In this document: positions 5,627 to 12,059 of the stretch, piece after piece
Layout of the letters: the number at the start of each line of letters is the position of its first letter
Position numbering within the stretch: the first letter of the stretch is position 1
NCBI GenBank assembly: GCA_021734165.1
Contig: JAIPJL010000011.1
Span: forward strand, 1-45,446
Direction of reading: 5' to 3'
DNA length: 45,446 bases
From: a bacterium
GTDB lineage: Bacteria > Electryoneota > AABM5-125-24 > Hatepunaeales > Hatepunaeaceae
The notes under the pieces: model-generated
Seen by the model: the letters and a program-made list of their open reading frames with translations, nothing else
The model's database searches: none
What the model was told of the DNA's origin: nothing
Translations under genes and position numbers: made by a program

Positions 5627-6874
5627 TTAATTTACAACAATTTCAGCCAATAACTCGGCTGTGTGTCGTACTATTATACCACTGTTTGTATTATTTACTA
5701 CTGATTGTAACCGCAATGCACAGCCAGGTGAACCAACCAGAATTTCTTCTGCTCCTGTTTCAATGGCTTGATTTATCTTTCTTTCAGCAATCTTATATGA
5801 GGTGTCGTTATGAAAAAAAGCATAGCTGCCTCCGAATCCACAACAATGATCACTATAAGGTAGCTCCCTTATTTCAAGTCCGTCAACAGCATTTAATAAA
5901 TCTCGCCAGCGACTGCCTCTTCCGACATGAATGATATGACATGAATCGTGTAATGTAATAGCTTTCTTATATTTCCCCAATTTCAATCTTCCATCATCAA
6001 GCGCTTCTGCTAATAAATGTCCTAAATCAGTAGTAATTTCAGCAAGCTTTTCTGCTTCGGATTGTAATTCTCTATCACTCTGAAACAGTTCAAGATAGTC
6101 ATGTGAAAATGCGCTGCTGCATGTTCCATCTGGAGAAATTACCTTATCAACGTTTAACTTATTAAAAAGTTCGATATTATGAACAGCAAGTTTTCTGGCA
6201 ATATCCCAGCTTGCATTATTAATCGCAGGCGCTCCGCAACAGACCTGCTCCTTCGGGATTACTACCCGCCATCCGGCTGCATTTAACAGCTTGATAACCG
6301 CATCAGCAACCCAGGGAGTTGATAAATTTACACTGCAACCAAGAAGTAATCCAACGGATCCGACTTCATTTACAACAGGATATTCACCGTCAAGATGTCT
6401 GATATAAGGCGCTCCTTTGAAAATCGGCAGCGATTGTTTACCGAGTTTTGCCTGTCTGTGATCATCCTTATCAAATCCGCTTAATAATCCTGCAAGTTTT
6501 ACTTCAAGTTCAAAGAGCTTTGGTTTGTTAATTGTCCAATACAAACCTGCATGTTTAAGTTTTCCGGCGCTTGTTAACCCACTCATATCCTGACGAGCTG
6601 TCGTCCATAAACGCTGAGTCTTCACACCTGCCGGACAAACGGTTTGACAAGCATAGCAAGTTAAACAATCATCAAATAAATCAGCGATTCCCGGTGATAC
6701 TTCAATAGACTCATCAATCAATGCTTTTAAAAGAACAATCTTTCCCCTGGCGGTTAAGCCTTCGTTACCCTTAACAAGATAAGTTGGACAGACAGAGAGG
6801 CATAAACCGCAATTAACGCATTTATCGAGTTCGTCTGTGCGAAGACTGATTTCATTCAGTTGCTTTTCCTTCAC
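5627..6874 (-). CDS. Fe-S oxidoreductase, GlcF-like (two 4Fe-4S clusters and two CCG domains)
   Basis: This 415-residue protein starts at GTG (6874), with GGAG a few bases before it inside the preceding gene. Two ferredoxin-type clusters are bound by Cys19/22/25/29 and Cys70/73/76/80. Two cysteine-rich CCG domains follow (CCGAP at 212 and CCGFGG at 344, with supporting Cys180, 252, 312 and 385). This architecture is that of glycolate oxidase subunit GlcF and related HdrD-like electron carriers. No GlcD flavoprotein is adjacent. Its place between a carboxylase and two acyl-CoA dehydrogenases suggests that it takes electrons from ETF or acyl-CoA dehydrogenases toward quinone or another carrier, although it has no membrane segment. 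It overlaps the biotin carrier gene by 23 bp. Confidence 0.85.
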   Translation of the reverse strand: MKEKQLNEISLRTDELDKCVNCGLCLSVCPTYLVKGNEGLTARGKIVLLKALIDESIEVSPGIADLFDDCLTCYACQTVCPAGVKTQRLWTTARQDMSGLTSAGKLKHAGLYWTINKPKLFELEVKLAGLLSGFDKDDHRQAKLGKQSLPIFKGAPYIRHLDGEYPVVNEVGSVGLLLGCSVNLSTPWVADAVIKLLNAAGWRVVIPKEQVCCGAPAINNASWDIARKLAVHNIELFNKLNVDKVISPDGTCSSAFSHDYLELFQSDRELQSEAEKLAEITTDLGHLLAEALDDGRLKLGKYKKAITLHDSCHIIHVGRGSRWRDLLNAVDGLEIRELPYSDHCCGFGGSYAFFHNDTSYKIAERKINQAIETGAEEILVGSPGCALRLQSVVNNTNSGIIVRHTAELLAEIVVN

Positions 6875-7376
6875 CAGTTTCTCCGAGAGGAGCGAGTTCT
6901 ATCATTATCTCACCGAAACCAACTTGCTGCCCTGCTTCGACATGTACTTTATCCACAACACCGTTCATCATTGCTCGCACTTCATTTTCCATCTTCATAG
7001 CTTCAACGATCACAATCGGTTGATCACGCTTAACTTCGTCACCTTCTTTCACCAGAAGCTTGATTACAGAACCGGGCATCGGAGCTACAACACGGTTATC
7101 ATCACCTCCATCAGTTGATCCTGCAGTGACGTCATCATGCGTCACATCTTTGAAATTCCAGGTTTTACCTGCAATATGAACAAATATATCATCCTTAACT
7201 CTGACCGCGTGGCAACGGATGATCTTTTCATCCTGCTTAATTATATATCCTGCATTTGGCTGTTCATTTATTATCAGATCGAGACTTTGATCATCGCACT
7301 TGAGCGATAACAAATCACCTTTGCGGTTGACGTCAAACTCATGAACTCCGCTATTATCTTTAAGTTTCAGTCTCAT
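6852..7376 (-). CDS. Biotin carboxyl carrier part of methylcrotonyl-CoA carboxylase alpha (split chain)
   Basis: The C-terminal part of this 174-residue protein is a standard biotinyl domain with the target lysine in VEAMKMENEV (Lys128). The first 80 or so residues (MRLKLKDNSGVHEF onward) are beta-rich and match the BT linker domain that normally joins biotin carboxylase to the carrier in acyl-CoA carboxylase alpha chains. The gene overlaps the biotin carboxylase stop codon by four bases (ATGA) and has its own Shine-Dalgarno GGAGG six bases before the ATG. It therefore appears to be a genuine separate gene, not a sequencing break. It carries CO2 on biotin to the carboxyltransferase at 12065-13675. 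Confidence 0.88.
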   Translation of the reverse strand: MRLKLKDNSGVHEFDVNRKGDLLSLKCDDQSLDLIINEQPNAGYIIKQDEKIIRCHAVRVKDDIFVHIAGKTWNFKDVTHDDVTAGSTDGGDDNRVVAPMPGSVIKLLVKEGDEVKRDQPIVIVEAMKMENEVRAMMNGVVDKVHVEAGQQVGFGEIMIELAPLGETGEGKATE

Positions 7377-8899
7377 TTCAAACCTCCTGAACCGAATTGC
7401 CAGGCGCCGATCTCAAGCCAGGGACTCGGTATTTCGTGAGTTCCATCACCAGTGGAGACAGTTTTTCTTTCACTCGGTAAGGAGGCTAATGCCAATGCCA
7501 AGCCAAGCTCTTCATCGCTTGCAGCAGGTGGTTTCCAGTCAGGAAGATATTGCGGAATAAAACCTGTATGCAGATTTCCATCGGTAAATGCCTGATGTTC
7601 GAGTACCGCTTTAAGGAAATCTATATTAGTAGTCAAACCAAGTATCACAGTATCATCCAAAGCCATTTGAATGCGTTTAATTGCTGATGCTCTGTCGGAT
7701 GCGGTAGCTATCAGTTTGGCGACAATTGGATCATAGTAAACTGAAACCTCATCGCCTGATTCTACTCCACCATCGAATCGAATGCCAAGTCCACGCGGTT
7801 CTTTCATAAAATGAACGGGACCAGCAGACGGTAAGAACCCTGCAGCAGCGTCTTCAGCATAGATACGCGCTTCAATGGAATGTCCGCGCTGCTTAATATC
7901 ATCCTGCCCCCAGGATAACTCTATACCGGCAGCAACAAGTATTTGCTCCTTAACGAGATCAATACCGATTGTTTCTTCTGTTACCGGATGCTCCACCTGG
8001 ATACGGGTATTGACTTCGAGAAAATAGAAATTACGATCTTTATCAAGAAGGAATTCCACAGTACCGGCATTGACATACTTGGCAGCTTCGATAACTTTAA
8101 CTGCTGTTTCACCCATGCGGTGCCTGAGTTCGTCATCAAGCGCCGGAGATGGTGTTTCCTCGATGATCTTCTGATGACGGCGCTGAATTGAGCATTCGCG
8201 CTCACAGAGATGAATACGGTTGCCTTGCCAGTCACCGAACACCTGGAACTCGATATGACGCGGCTCAACGAGGTATCTTTCTAAGAAAACAGTAGGATCA
8301 CCGAAGGCAGCTTTAGCTTCACGCTGAGCAGCTTCGATTGACGACTGAAGGTTTGCTGGGTCGTTGACAACCCGCATCCCTTTGCCACCTCCACCGGAAG
8401 CTGCTTTAACCAAGACAGGGAAGCCAATCCGTTCAGCTTCCTTGAGCAATGTTTTATCATCGAGTGCTGAGTCGCTTTTCATGCCCGGGACAAGCGGGAC
8501 GCCTGCTTCAGCCATAGTCTTGCGGGACTCGACTTTGTTGCCAAGCAATTGAATGGACTCCGGAGTAGATCCGATAAAGACCAGATCCGCTTTACCGACT
8601 GCTCTCGCAAATTCAGCATTTTCAGCGAGGAAGCCATATCCCGGATGAATAGCGCAGCAGCCTGCTTTTTTAGCTGTCTCAATGATAACAGCCTGGTTGA
8701 GATAGCTCATGTTTGGAGCAGCCGGACCGATGCAGTATGCTTCATCCGCTTCTCTGACGTGCATGGCTGTTTTATCGACTTCGGAATATACTGCAACCGC
8801 CGTAATACCAAGCTCATGACAGGCTCGGATAATGCGGATTGCGATTTCACCGCGATTTGCGATTAAAATTTTGTGTAAATCTATTTTAGAGTTCTCCAA
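7373..8899 (-). CDS. Biotin carboxylase part of methylcrotonyl-CoA carboxylase alpha (split chain)
   Basis: This 508-residue ATP-grasp enzyme begins ILIANRGEIAIRIIRAC. It has the glycine-rich ATP loop GGGGKGM (residues 169-175), CERECSIQRRHQKIIEE (232-248) and FLEVNTRIQVEHPVTE (294-309). It carboxylates biotin using ATP and bicarbonate. The chain runs about 60 residues past the usual biotin carboxylase end and stops at GAWQFGSGGLK, inside what is normally the BT linker; the rest of the chain is the next gene. The only reasonable start is TTG at 8899, directly preceded by an in-frame stop and without a clear Shine-Dalgarno, immediately next to the inserted deaminase cassette. It pairs with the carboxyltransferase upstream of the cassette. 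Confidence 0.92.
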   Translation of the reverse strand: MENSKIDLHKILIANRGEIAIRIIRACHELGITAVAVYSEVDKTAMHVREADEAYCIGPAAPNMSYLNQAVIIETAKKAGCCAIHPGYGFLAENAEFARAVGKADLVFIGSTPESIQLLGNKVESRKTMAEAGVPLVPGMKSDSALDDKTLLKEAERIGFPVLVKAASGGGGKGMRVVNDPANLQSSIEAAQREAKAAFGDPTVFLERYLVEPRHIEFQVFGDWQGNRIHLCERECSIQRRHQKIIEETPSPALDDELRHRMGETAVKVIEAAKYVNAGTVEFLLDKDRNFYFLEVNTRIQVEHPVTEETIGIDLVKEQILVAAGIELSWGQDDIKQRGHSIEARIYAEDAAAGFLPSAGPVHFMKEPRGLGIRFDGGVESGDEVSVYYDPIVAKLIATASDRASAIKRIQMALDDTVILGLTTNIDFLKAVLEHQAFTDGNLHTGFIPQYLPDWKPPAASDEELGLALALASLPSERKTVSTGDGTHEIPSPWLEIGAWQFGSGGLK

Positions 8900-8921
8900 T
8901 TAAATTGTCAATTTAGTTTTC

Positions 8922-9092
8922 CTATCTAACTTCTCTTGATACACCAGCTTTATTTGCTACTCTAAAATTAGAAGAAACTTTCACATACTTAACTTTCTTA
9001 TCTGAATCCCAAGAACGAACCGCTTTTGAATTCTCATCGATTCTAGATCGCAGTGAAGATTCATTAATCTGTGCTTTTCTTTTATTTGTCAT
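8922..9092 (-). CDS. Small basic protein of unknown function overlapping the deaminase gene
   Basis: This 56-residue ORF starts at ATG 9092, inside the last codons of the deaminase (11-bp overlap, different frame), and ends at 8922. It begins MTNKRKAQINESSLRSRIDE and ends VSREVR. About a quarter of its residues are Lys or Arg, and there is no signal peptide, transmembrane segment or cysteine. I do not recognise the family. The overlap implies translational coupling to the deaminase, so if real it is part of the same cassette and could be a regulator, antitoxin or nucleic-acid binder. It could also be a chance ORF, because the evidence is only position, frame and composition. Confidence 0.5.
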   Translation of the reverse strand: MTNKRKAQINESSLRSRIDENSKAVRSWDSDKKVKYVKVSSNFRVANKAGVSREVR

Positions 9093-10587
9093 TAGTACTC
9101 CGAATTATGTTTATCTTGTTCCCTAACTGATTGATGAAATGCTTTTCTCTGTCCAAATACGACTTTTTATCTAATTGCATTCTAAGTTGGGTTTTAACTT
9201 TAGCTACCGGAACTATAGTATTAATACCTATTTTTCTTTTTACAGGATACCCAGAACCAAGAGTCATTGAAAACAAATCAAGAAATCTACGCGGACCGAT
9301 TCCTGTAAATGACTCAAAGACTATCTTACTACCGTTAGTAGCTTCAAGTGTTATTGCATCCGAATGTAATTCCAATGCTTTACTCTTTGGGTAAGGTTCC
9401 ACAAAAACGACTCTTTTTATACCAGCGGCAATAATGTGTTTTGCACAGTTATGGCAAGGAAATGTGGTTGAATAAAGCGTCCCACCTTTACATGAAATAC
9501 TCTTTCGCGTGCATGAAACAATTGCTTCCATTTCTGCATGAACAGCTCGACCATATTCTGTAATATCCATTAATTCACTATTAGAAAGTACTTCTTTTAG
9601 CTTATCTTTATCATCCCCTTTAAATCCAGTATTTTTAATAATATTATCTGCTATCCCTAAGCTTATCTTTTTATTAGAATCCACTCCTTTAGTATAATCT
9701 CTACCACCTTCATCATCTTTAATAATACTTCCACTTGAATCTAAATGAGGCCAATAAAGTCCACCACCATATTTTGGAACATCATTAGCTCCTGTAGATA
9801 TTATCTCGTCATTTATTGTAATTACAGCGCCAACCTGTCTTGATAAGTCTGCTGATCTTAATGCAGAAATAAAAGCCATATACATAGCAAACTCGTCAAA
9901 TGTAGGAGTGTGATATGGAAAACCAAATAAAAGATCTATAAATCTGCTAACTTCATTTTGAATGCGGTTTCTATTTGAAGATACTTGTATAAAGAAGTCA
10001 GATAAATGAAATGTATCTCGTGTCTTTTGTCCATATGGAACATTCTCATTCTCATCTCTATCAAAAAGTAATTTAAGGTCACTGTCTTTAACGCCTTTGC
10101 TCTTTAAATATCTTTCACGGCTTATGCTGTCGGCAAATACTCCTACTAACCAAAAACCACTTGAATAGATATGACGTAATGTAACTACTTCATTAGGGTG
10201 TTTTAATGATTCAATAAGATATGCTACTCGTTGATTTTTATCTTTTATAATCCTATTTTTATCGCGTATTTCTTGTATTTTTAAGGCAATACCCAATGCA
10301 AGTATATCGTGCAGTTTTGATTTTTTTCTTAACTCATCTCCTGCATCCATATATCTGGTAATTCTTGTAAATTCTTTTAAACCCTTTCTCATAGATTCCC
10401 CTCTAATCATATCTATAATATCATTAGATACCTTTATTATATTCACATCATATCCGTAAGTCTCTAATTCATTTTTAAGACAATCCCGAATAACATTAAT
10501 CTCTGAACCTACGGCCCCTACCAGCCCGATTACTAATTCAGAATCAGCAATTACCATAGGTTCAAATGGAATTAAATCTTTATGCAT
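9082..10587 (-). CDS. Antiphage deoxycytidylate deaminase, AvcD/DcdV-like
   Basis: This 501-residue protein has two parts. The N-terminal domain begins with a P-loop-like segment, ELVIGLVGAVGSEINV (residues 17-32), and contains about 200 further residues resembling a nucleotide kinase fold. The C-terminal domain (about 230-430) is a zinc-dependent deoxycytidylate deaminase, with DLSRQVGAVI, HAEMEAI (His350, Glu352) and FPCHNCAKH (Cys378, Cys381). This combination and length match the AvcD/DcdV family, which deaminates dC nucleotides on phage infection and depletes dCTP. The gene is more AT-rich than its metabolic neighbours. It has a perfect TATAAT 26 bp upstream of its start and AAGG before the ATG. 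It lies between a SNase-like gene and a 56-residue ORF, inside a leucine-degradation operon. The inhibitory small RNA known for the Vibrio system was not recognised here. Confidence 0.85.
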   Translation of the reverse strand: MHKDLIPFEPMVIADSELVIGLVGAVGSEINVIRDCLKNELETYGYDVNIIKVSNDIIDMIRGESMRKGLKEFTRITRYMDAGDELRKKSKLHDILALGIALKIQEIRDKNRIIKDKNQRVAYLIESLKHPNEVVTLRHIYSSGFWLVGVFADSISRERYLKSKGVKDSDLKLLFDRDENENVPYGQKTRDTFHLSDFFIQVSSNRNRIQNEVSRFIDLLFGFPYHTPTFDEFAMYMAFISALRSADLSRQVGAVITINDEIISTGANDVPKYGGGLYWPHLDSSGSIIKDDEGGRDYTKGVDSNKKISLGIADNIIKNTGFKGDDKDKLKEVLSNSELMDITEYGRAVHAEMEAIVSCTRKSISCKGGTLYSTTFPCHNCAKHIIAAGIKRVVFVEPYPKSKALELHSDAITLEATNGSKIVFESFTGIGPRRFLDLFSMTLGSGYPVKRKIGINTIVPVAKVKTQLRMQLDKKSYLDREKHFINQLGNKINIIRSTNDK

Positions 10588-10612
10588 TTTTAACCTTAAT
10601 AAATCGCTCTAA

Positions 10613-10618
10613 ATTATA
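10613..10618 (-). promoter_or_regulatory. Possible -10 element of a promoter for the deaminase gene
   Basis: On the minus strand the sequence reads TATAAT exactly, in the 44-bp gap between the SNase-like gene and the deaminase. The -35 region 16-18 bp upstream is poor. Transcription would begin near 10606 and leave a leader of only about 19 nt. This would let the cassette be expressed apart from the surrounding operon. It is a single-element match in AT-rich DNA, so confidence is modest. Confidence 0.4.
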
Positions 10619-10631
10619 GTACAAACAATAT

Positions 10632-11105
10632 TTAGTCACTATTCTCAACCCAAATCCCAACCTTCTTTTCCTTCGCTTCCTTCTCAAGTGCTATGTATTT
10701 ATCCAAATCATCAATGGGGAACCTTTTATCAACTCTAGCAAGACCCTTTTTTATAAGTAACGCACCGAAGTCAATTGAGTGATCATCTCCATACATGATC
10801 TTCATAAAAGCATATCCATCCTTATCATACACAATTCCATCAGCATTGTTATTCAATGTATATGAATAAACAGCTACGAGTTCTCCTTCAAGCTCATTTT
10901 TAGTAAACTCGAAAACTTTCTGACCAAACTTTTCATCTAAGTCAGGTGTGTTCACACCGGAAATATGAGCTTTGAAACCACCTTCACATTCAATAGTATC
11001 ACCGTCGTGAACCTTCTTAATTACAAGCGTATTTGCGCTAACTGGTGTTACAGTAATCGCAATCACTACTGAAAATATGAATACAGTTTTTAGAAATGAT
11101 TTCAT
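10632..11105 (-). CDS. Secreted staphylococcal-nuclease-like protein with altered active site
   Basis: A cleavable signal peptide (MKSFLKTVFIFSVVIAITVT, cut after about residue 24) precedes a SNase/OB-fold domain of about 130 residues. Family landmarks are present: KVHDGDTIEC (residues 31-40), SGVNTPDLDEKFG, GLARVDKRFP and EKEAKEKKVGIWV. Relative to the family pattern, the Arg before the GIDTPE motif is His47, the Asp and Glu of that motif are Asn52 and Asp55, and the second catalytic Arg (DKYGR) is Tyr98. Only the DGD acid pair is kept. Calcium-dependent nuclease activity is therefore doubtful, and the domain may be a binding module. It sits 44 bp upstream of the deaminase and downstream of an inverted repeat. 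Confidence 0.8.
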   Translation of the reverse strand: MKSFLKTVFIFSVVIAITVTPVSANTLVIKKVHDGDTIECEGGFKAHISGVNTPDLDEKFGQKVFEFTKNELEGELVAVYSYTLNNNADGIVYDKDGYAFMKIMYGDDHSIDFGALLIKKGLARVDKRFPIDDLDKYIALEKEAKEKKVGIWVENSD

Positions 11106-11138: not shown

Positions 11139-11192
11139 ACCACAGAGTCACAAAGACACAGATATCTTTGTGAGCTTTGTGTTCTCTGTGTT
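11139..11192. repeat. Inverted repeat of the CACAGAG/CTCTGTG type, copy A
   Basis: An imperfect 54-bp inverted repeat whose outer arms are ACCACAGAG and CTCTGTGTT, with inner arms CACAAAG and CTTTGTG. A related copy lies at 11999-12059, so the hydratase gene between them has one copy on each side. The element has no T-run and is unlikely to be a simple terminator. It resembles the dispersed repeats rich in CACAAAG and CACAGAG found between genes in many environmental bacteria. Confidence 0.7.
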
Positions 11193-11195
11193 AAA

Positions 11196-11993
11196 CTAAT
11201 TACTCCACTTCGGCTTTCGCTTCTCTAAAAATGCCTTCGTTCCCTCCTGTCCTTCCGGTCCGGTACGCAACTCAGCAATCATATTAGCCGTGTATTTGAT
11301 ATATTCTTCACGCGAAAGCTGCGGTACGTCACGCACAAGACGCTTGGCAGCGTCAATAGCAACCGGTCCTGAGGTCAGCAGAGCCTTCAATATAACATCA
11401 ACCTCTTCATTCAGCTTACCTTCTTCGGCAACTTTGTTTACAAGGTTATAACGATCAGCCTCTTCAGCGCTGATTCTGCGACCGGTTATGAATAACTCGC
11501 GTGAGCGACTCTGACCAACTTTGCGTACAACGTAAGGTCCGATGCAACCCGGCACCAGTCCTATCTTGACTTCACTGAAGCTGAAAAAGGCTTTATGATC
11601 AGCAATAGCAACATCACAGGATGAGACAAGACCAGTTCCACCACCGATAGCCGCGCCATTGACACGCGCAATCGAAGGCTTGGGACTTCTCGCAATAGCA
11701 TCGAACATATAGGCAAGTTTAAGCGCATCCTGGAAGTTTTCCTCGAAGCCCAACTGCCCCATACGCTTCATCCAGTCAATGTCAGCGCCTGCGGAAAATA
11801 CCGTACCTTCACCGGTTACAACCATAGCTCTGACATCGTTGTCAGCGCTGAGTATATCAACCGCCTTATGAATGTCGGCTATCATCCGTTCGTCGAAAGC
11901 ATTCCTGACTTCCGGACGATTCATGGTTATCCAGCCGACGCGGTCTTTTATCTCAACTTTTATTGTCTGATAATCGTTCAGTTTAAACCTCAT
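11196..11993 (-). CDS. Methylglutaconyl-CoA hydratase-type enoyl-CoA hydratase
   Basis: This is a crotonase-superfamily enzyme of 265 residues from the start chosen here (ATG 11993, MRFKLNDYQTI). The segment FSAGADIDWMKRMG is typical of methylglutaconyl-CoA hydratases (LiuC), as is GGGTGLVSSCDVAIAD. The catalytic Glu of SEVKIGLVPG is present, while the other crotonase Glu is Gly in GGGTGL, a common change in this subgroup. It hydrates 3-methylglutaconyl-CoA to HMG-CoA in leucine breakdown. An in-frame ATG 21 bp upstream (12014) would add seven residues read from the inverted repeat; I regard that as less likely. The gene follows the carboxyltransferase, as expected for a leucine operon. Confidence 0.88.
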   Translation of the reverse strand: MRFKLNDYQTIKVEIKDRVGWITMNRPEVRNAFDERMIADIHKAVDILSADNDVRAMVVTGEGTVFSAGADIDWMKRMGQLGFEENFQDALKLAYMFDAIARSPKPSIARVNGAAIGGGTGLVSSCDVAIADHKAFFSFSEVKIGLVPGCIGPYVVRKVGQSRSRELFITGRRISAEEADRYNLVNKVAEEGKLNEEVDVILKALLTSGPVAIDAAKRLVRDVPQLSREEYIKYTANMIAELRTGPEGQEGTKAFLEKRKPKWSN

Positions 11994-11998
11994 TTTTG

Positions 11999-12059
11999 AA
12001 CCACAAAGTCTCAAAGAAACAAAGCAAAATATTCTTAGTGTCTTTGTGCCTTGGTGGTT
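11999..12059. repeat. Inverted repeat of the CACAGAG/CTCTGTG type, copy B
   Basis: Arms AACCACAAAGTCTCAAAGAA and the complement of CTTTGTGCCTTGGTGGTT enclose an AT-rich centre. It is related to copy A at 11139-11192 in both motif and spacing. It fills the gap between the carboxyltransferase gene and the hydratase and reaches to within six bases of the preferred hydratase start, so it displaces any normal Shine-Dalgarno site. Confidence 0.7.

Follow-up and report, generated by a model that had tools for sequence, protein, structure and literature searches.

AvcD, the deaminase of the AvcID type III toxin-antitoxin system (Hsueh et al. 2022, 2023), deaminates dCTP and dCMP upon phage infection (PMC10511110). 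Until transcription stops, AvcD is inhibited by AvcI, an RNA antitoxin of about 171–300 nt (PMC10511110) that is encoded upstream of avcD (PMC9455884). The homologous anti-phage dCTP deaminase (Tal et al. 2022) is represented in defence libraries as a one-gene system. Here, we analyzed a deaminase locus in a 45,446-nt stretch of bacterial DNA (the whole stretch is referred to as the window). The sequence-only reading had placed an SNase-like gene, a deaminase and a 56-residue ORF between the hydratase and the alpha-chain genes of a metabolic operon, and all three were found there, on the minus strand like the hydratase and biotin carboxylase (BC) genes that flank them (Table 1). We consider it rather probable that the locus represents a horizontally acquired DcdV-type module, composed of the deaminase and a small regulatory partner, at an insertion hotspot.

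Table 1. Features of the inserted segment and of its two edges in the window.
Feature	Position	Strand	Basis or remark
Biotin carboxylase (BC) subunit, downstream edge of junction	7373..8899	-	Pfam
56-aa small protein gene	8922..9092	-	overlaps deaminase stop; position and size of the V..WP.WK partner
DcdV/AvcD-type antiphage dCTP/dCMP deaminase, 501 aa	9082..10587	-	NF041025, PADLOC dCTPase, Pfam
Shine-Dalgarno-like GGAG upstream of 56-aa ORF	9098..9101	-	sequence
TATAAT hexamer upstream of deaminase	10613..10618	-	sequence; without matching -35
Predicted secreted SNase-like protein, 157 aa	10632..11105	-	Pfam SNase 1.1e-10; predicted co-inserted cargo
Imperfect palindromic ACCACAGAG... dispersed repeat	11139..11193	.	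hydratase-side edge of insert
Enoyl-CoA hydratase (LiuC-like), upstream edge of junction	11196..12014	-	Pfam ECH_1; conserved in relatives

The deaminase matched the profile NF041025 ('anti-phage dCTP deaminase') with 471.2 bits (cut-off 400) over model positions 1–433 of 437, and the PADLOC dCTPase model with an E-value of 8e-165. It also matched Pfam dCMP_cyt_deam_1. The remaining deaminases of the same genome scored at most 45 bits on NF041025, which argues that the window enzyme is of the antiphage type and not a housekeeping dCMP deaminase. The housekeeping enzymes (ComEB or human DCTD-like) have the same deaminase domain fold, but they lack the kinase-like domain. The catalytic residues H350, A351, and E352 (HAE) and P377, C378, and C381 (PCxxC) were invariant in 43 proteins, including that of the window, and the window enzyme retained 95 of the 97 near-invariant columns of the family. 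The two exceptions, G456N and W461V, are located near the C-terminus. The AlphaFold2 model of the window deaminase (pLDDT 90, pTM 0.89) has the same order of elements as the model of a 47%-identical homologue from Methylocucumis (L038), with an N-terminal P-loop kinase-like domain followed by a C-terminal zinc deaminase domain. A Foldseek search with the L038 model returned dCMP deaminases and the adenylate-kinase-related structures 3h0k and 3lw7. These results bear out the AvcD/DcdV-like identity, with P-loop-like and zinc deaminase domains, that had been proposed from the sequence. The enzyme shares the full-length match, the catalytic motifs, and the kinase-like plus deaminase architecture with the anti-phage dCTP deaminase of Tal et al. 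(2022), and it is homologous to the deaminase of AvcID (36%–39% identity in L122, L123, L125, and L126). As judged by its sequence, it is an imported member of the known antiphage dCTP deaminase family, and conserved residues and model together indicate that it is probably functional. In the tree, it forms a long branch inside a part that is mainly populated by partner-bearing deaminases (see below).

Many deaminases among the homologous loci L033–L108 (e.g., L053, L085, and L040) carry an extra N-terminal domain of ~70 aa, which was not recognized by Pfam and follows the pattern F.G...ELK.KL...GG..NW..STG...FQGK. In L053, which belongs to the clade with this domain, a type I restriction HsdR gene (7449–10700, plus strand) lies directly after the deaminase. 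ORFs of 1020–1163 aa are located at the corresponding place in L042, L061, and L085.

For 80 homologues of the deaminase in other genomes, the region downstream was inspected for short ORFs. A short ORF with a V..WP.WK core was found downstream of the deaminases, usually overlapping the deaminase stop codon. A profile of this small partner was built from 48 sequences and searched in 104 loci, where it matched only directly after the deaminase or in a fused tail. The partner was present in 56 of 100 non-redundant deaminase loci, from at least five phyla (Pseudomonadota, Planctomycetota, Bacillota, Myxococcota, and Acidobacteriota), and the W, P, W, and K of the core were invariant among 24 partner sequences from different phyla. 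The dN/dS values of the small gene were between 0.05 and 0.41 in six genus-level sets, and it is therefore a protein-coding gene under purifying selection. In L038, the WP.WK core is naturally fused to the C-terminus of the deaminase, and the predicted structure of this fused tail consists of a helix (residues 501–514), then the WP, and then a second helix (residues 519–526). Based on this model, the canonical small protein may fold as a helical hairpin around WP.WK.

Among 343 genomes of Planctomycetota, the partner was found in 7 of the 12 that encode the deaminase versus 5 of the 331 others (Fisher P 6e-9), and Planctomycetota deaminases that were found later were partner-positive although they had been left out of profile building. 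The two profile matches in a gammaproteobacterial sample of 369 genomes corresponded to the known centre deaminase locus and to one chance ORF; the canonical partner was present in one of the five deaminase genomes of this sample, and diverged small ORFs occurred there instead in two others. The partner is not obligatory, since a clade of 21 deaminases, most of which carry the extra N-terminal domain, was without it. A canonical WP.WK protein was also encoded downstream of a RiboL-PSP/MAE_28990-like HEPN nuclease (L170, 1417–1608 and 1987–2685, minus strand). This is a real second copy in a genome that also has the deaminase. Since it stands next to the nuclease, the partner is not exclusive to the deaminase. 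The L170 case suggests that the WP.WK protein is a module shared with other defence systems. Of the weak matches in genomes without the deaminase (L172 and L165–L169), the two inspected, L172 and L165, were rejected, as they look like out-of-frame chance ORFs.

No family corresponding to the small partner was found in Pfam, NCBIfam, or PADLOC, and no resemblance of WP.WK to the antitoxin families in these three collections was detected. The literature that was searched yielded no report of it (Hsueh 2022 and Tal 2022 lay outside that search). Within the databases and literature checked, the conserved small partner gene is apparently new. The window and most of its close clade thus differ from the one-gene system of the defence libraries by the small gene that follows the deaminase.

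In the window, the place of this partner is taken by the 56-aa ORF, whose ATG is situated 11 nt upstream of where the deaminase stop codon ends. Its overlap with the deaminase, its GGAG, and its location at the conserved small-partner position had escaped the sequence-only reading. The ORF has the same position and size as the partner in the 56 of 100 loci. Its sequence, SRIDENSKAVRSWDSDKKVKYVK, aligned in register with the family core in a gapless core profile, with W28 aligned, and in this single post hoc test it was distinguished from shuffles with P = 0.007 and from unrelated short ORFs with 2/4502 (P = 4e-4). With the full HMMs, the ORF scored 3.9 and 1.5 bits, which is not significant. 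Its core reads W-D-S-D-K, in which the W and the K are kept and the P and the second W are lost, so it does not have the invariant W-P-x-W-K. Other diverged W...K cores were found at the same position in L083 (WSASKK) and L174 (WSPSKQ). The divergence of the window partner is accompanied by the two C-terminal changes in its deaminase. On the basis of position and sequence, the 56-aa ORF is probably a diverged homologue of the WP.WK partner.

In the mechanism that we favour, a defence module consisting of the deaminase and a small, translationally coupled partner protein would have landed in the hydratase-carboxylase junction and would be expressed from the same strand, via operon read-through or a weak promoter of its own. 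By analogy with the family, the deaminase would convert dCTP and dCMP to dUTP and dUMP upon phage infection, and phage replication would be starved. The small protein probably associates with the deaminase and determines how active it is. In the simplest form, it would be an antitoxin-like inhibitor that is lost once the phage stops host transcription, and it would substitute for or complement the AvcI RNA of AvcID. Small coupled partners of toxic nucleotide-depleting enzymes are often inhibitors. Type II toxin-antitoxin systems such as HicAB likewise have a small coupled gene beside a toxic enzyme, whereas the WP.WK protein has no sequence relation to known antitoxin families.

The small protein could also act in the opposite direction, as an activator, sensor, or targeting subunit that delivers the deaminase or switches it on during infection. 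This differs from the inhibitor solely in the direction of regulation, and we regard it as a serious possibility, if short of probable. The small gene comes after the deaminase, whereas many antitoxins come first; the one natural fusion (L038) fits an obligatory subunit, and the presence of the protein next to the HEPN nuclease fits a shared adaptor. A toxic nucleotide-depleting enzyme, on the other hand, would be expected to need restraint. Our inference is that the deaminase is under the control of the small protein, with an inhibitor as the first choice and an activator or adaptor as a close second.

Alternatively, the locus may encode a plain DcdV/AvcD deaminase that has no functional partner, with the 56-aa ORF being a chance or decaying frame and with control exerted by an RNA or by nothing. 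The insignificant HMM scores, the loss of the P and second W from the core, and the clade of 21 deaminases that manages without the partner are consistent with this. Nevertheless, we consider it unlikely, because the ORF has the right position, overlap, length, Shine-Dalgarno sequence, and register, and because diverged W...K versions occupy the same position elsewhere (L083 and L174). The upstream region offers little to support the RNA part of this alternative. In AvcID the RNA is encoded upstream of the deaminase, whereas in the window the deaminase is separated from the SNase-like gene by 44 nt, with nothing resembling a structured RNA antitoxin, and the small protein gene is downstream. 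No Rfam match was found upstream of the window deaminase. The 200 nt upstream folded worse than 200 of 200 shuffles (z +2.55), although fold energy is an unreliable marker of AvcI-type loci: by the fold z-scores of the 250 nt upstream, AvcD-clade loci were not separable from other loci. In loci with the WP.WK partner, a median of 337 nt precedes the deaminase, which leaves room for an AvcI-like RNA. The protein therefore need not stand in for an RNA, and the idea that it replaces the upstream RNA in general was dropped.

The AvcD-clade loci themselves contain an ORF of 56–61 aa immediately upstream of the deaminase, at the expected position of the AvcI RNA (L122, 124–306; L123, 2688–2873; L125, 2648–2818; L126, 1695–1877). 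All four of these ORFs terminate in a similar K-x-h-x-W stop motif, and they could represent an overlooked small protein.

The deaminase had also been credited with its own TATAAT promoter. The hexamer is present, but it has no acceptable -35 and was not returned by the promoter scan, and promoter-like sites were not more frequent than in shuffled sequence. A separate promoter for the deaminase is thus not supported. The 44-nt gap suggests that the SNase-like gene and the deaminase are co-transcribed.

The SNase-like gene had been counted as part of a three-gene defence cassette, a view that holds for the deaminase but not for the SNase. The two enzymes could in principle form one system that combines nucleotide depletion with DNA degradation, as their close spacing, common low G+C, and shared strand might indicate. 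This is very unlikely, since an SNase gene was found beside the deaminase in none of about 100 other deaminase loci, and the SNase as a deaminase partner was accordingly rejected. In addition, the signal-peptide-like N-terminus of the SNase homologue suggests export, and SNase is sporadic in the phylum, where it is found alone in other genomes. From these sequence comparisons, we take the SNase-like gene to be unrelated, co-inserted cargo outside the defence module.

The inserted segment differs from its surroundings in base composition, as had been noticed from sampled lines of the sequence. The cassette has a G+C content of 0.335 and its deaminase gene one of 0.331, versus 0.478 for BC, 0.477 for the hydratase, and 0.475 for the beta subunit. 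In a scan of the contig, the cassette was the G+C minimum, followed by a 1.5-kb stretch with 0.343. The deaminase was absent from all 38 other genomes of the phylum that were searched, including all eight of its own family, which argues for horizontal acquisition. Neither of the two outcomes that the sequence-only reading had named as refuting was obtained (a cassette at the same place in all relatives with matching base composition, or a deaminase that groups with the housekeeping dCMP deaminases). The hydratase gene is directly adjacent to the carboxylase gene in nine genomes belonging to other families, with a spacing of about -16 to 77 nt, and thus the proposed insertion into the operon was upheld and is lineage-specific.

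The same junction is occupied in most members of the family. The hydratase-BC gap is 58 nt in G001, whereas six of the seven family members (G000, G002, G003, G004, G005, and G007) have 1.6–3.3 kb at this position. The cargo includes HicB antitoxin-like proteins (G007, G003, G004, and G002, with HicA recognized by Pfam in G003), HNH-repeat proteins (G007 and G002), a nucleotidyltransferase (G007), an AbiU2/HEPN- and HicB-like protein (G004; its AbiU2 match is slightly below the cut-off), and a 1003-aa protein (G005). The hydratase-biotin carboxylase junction is therefore a newly recognized, lineage-specific insertion hotspot. Since the cargo in sister genera is unrelated, the junction is best viewed as a permissive landing site, for which no tie to leucine catabolism is necessary. 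The earlier suggestion that the cassette was placed in a metabolic operon to sense or exploit its expression is scarcely credible, because, although the cassette lies in line with the operon on the same strand and is probably co-expressed with it, sister-genus junctions hold HicAB, HNH-repeat, nucleotidyltransferase, and AbiU2-like genes, the other family genomes have no deaminase, and a permissive site is simpler.

The operon flanks of the insert encode an acyl-CoA dehydrogenase, carboxylase subunits, and the hydratase. In a profile search of the flanking genes, no pathway-specific enzyme of leucine degradation matched above its equivalog cut-off, and for this reason the operon is designated as leucine-degradation type with a presumed substrate. 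The other genes checked in the window (thiolase, RecJ, glycosyltransferase, PBP, and PurH) are housekeeping or without assignment, so the locus is not a defence island.

Two further observations were made at the edges of the insertions. The last 11–22 codons of the hydratase are duplicated once or twice within the hydratase-BC gap of L113, L114, L115, and L116 (in L115 at about 6522–6555 and 7113–7148). These copies adjoin HicAB-type units, as if each unit had brought or regenerated the 3' end of the gene. The repeat that borders the window insert towards the hydratase has a left arm that occurs at about 19 sites in its own genome (up to 3 mismatches) and at none in a reversed control, and repeats of the ACCACAGAG kind are also located 5' of BC in L113 and L114.

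The junction in the leucine-type operon indicates that defence and toxin-antitoxin genes can build up at a protein-coding boundary outside defence islands. The small partner is invisible to the defence-finding libraries that were searched. To our knowledge, AvcID is the only case in which it is known how a dC-depleting defence enzyme is kept silent before infection; there, the silencing agent is an RNA. We tentatively propose that, in a large clade from at least five phyla, dCTP-deaminase defence may be a two-component system, in which a V..WP.WK hairpin protein controls the deaminase and also serves other defence nucleases, such as the HEPN nuclease of L170, and of which the window carries a diverged version. 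Because a conserved, once-fused, and selected small protein lies beside most members of the sister clade, such control is directly testable there. If the proposal is true, WP.WK would correspond, at the protein level, to the AvcI RNA and would constitute a regulatory module that different systems of bacterial immunity share.
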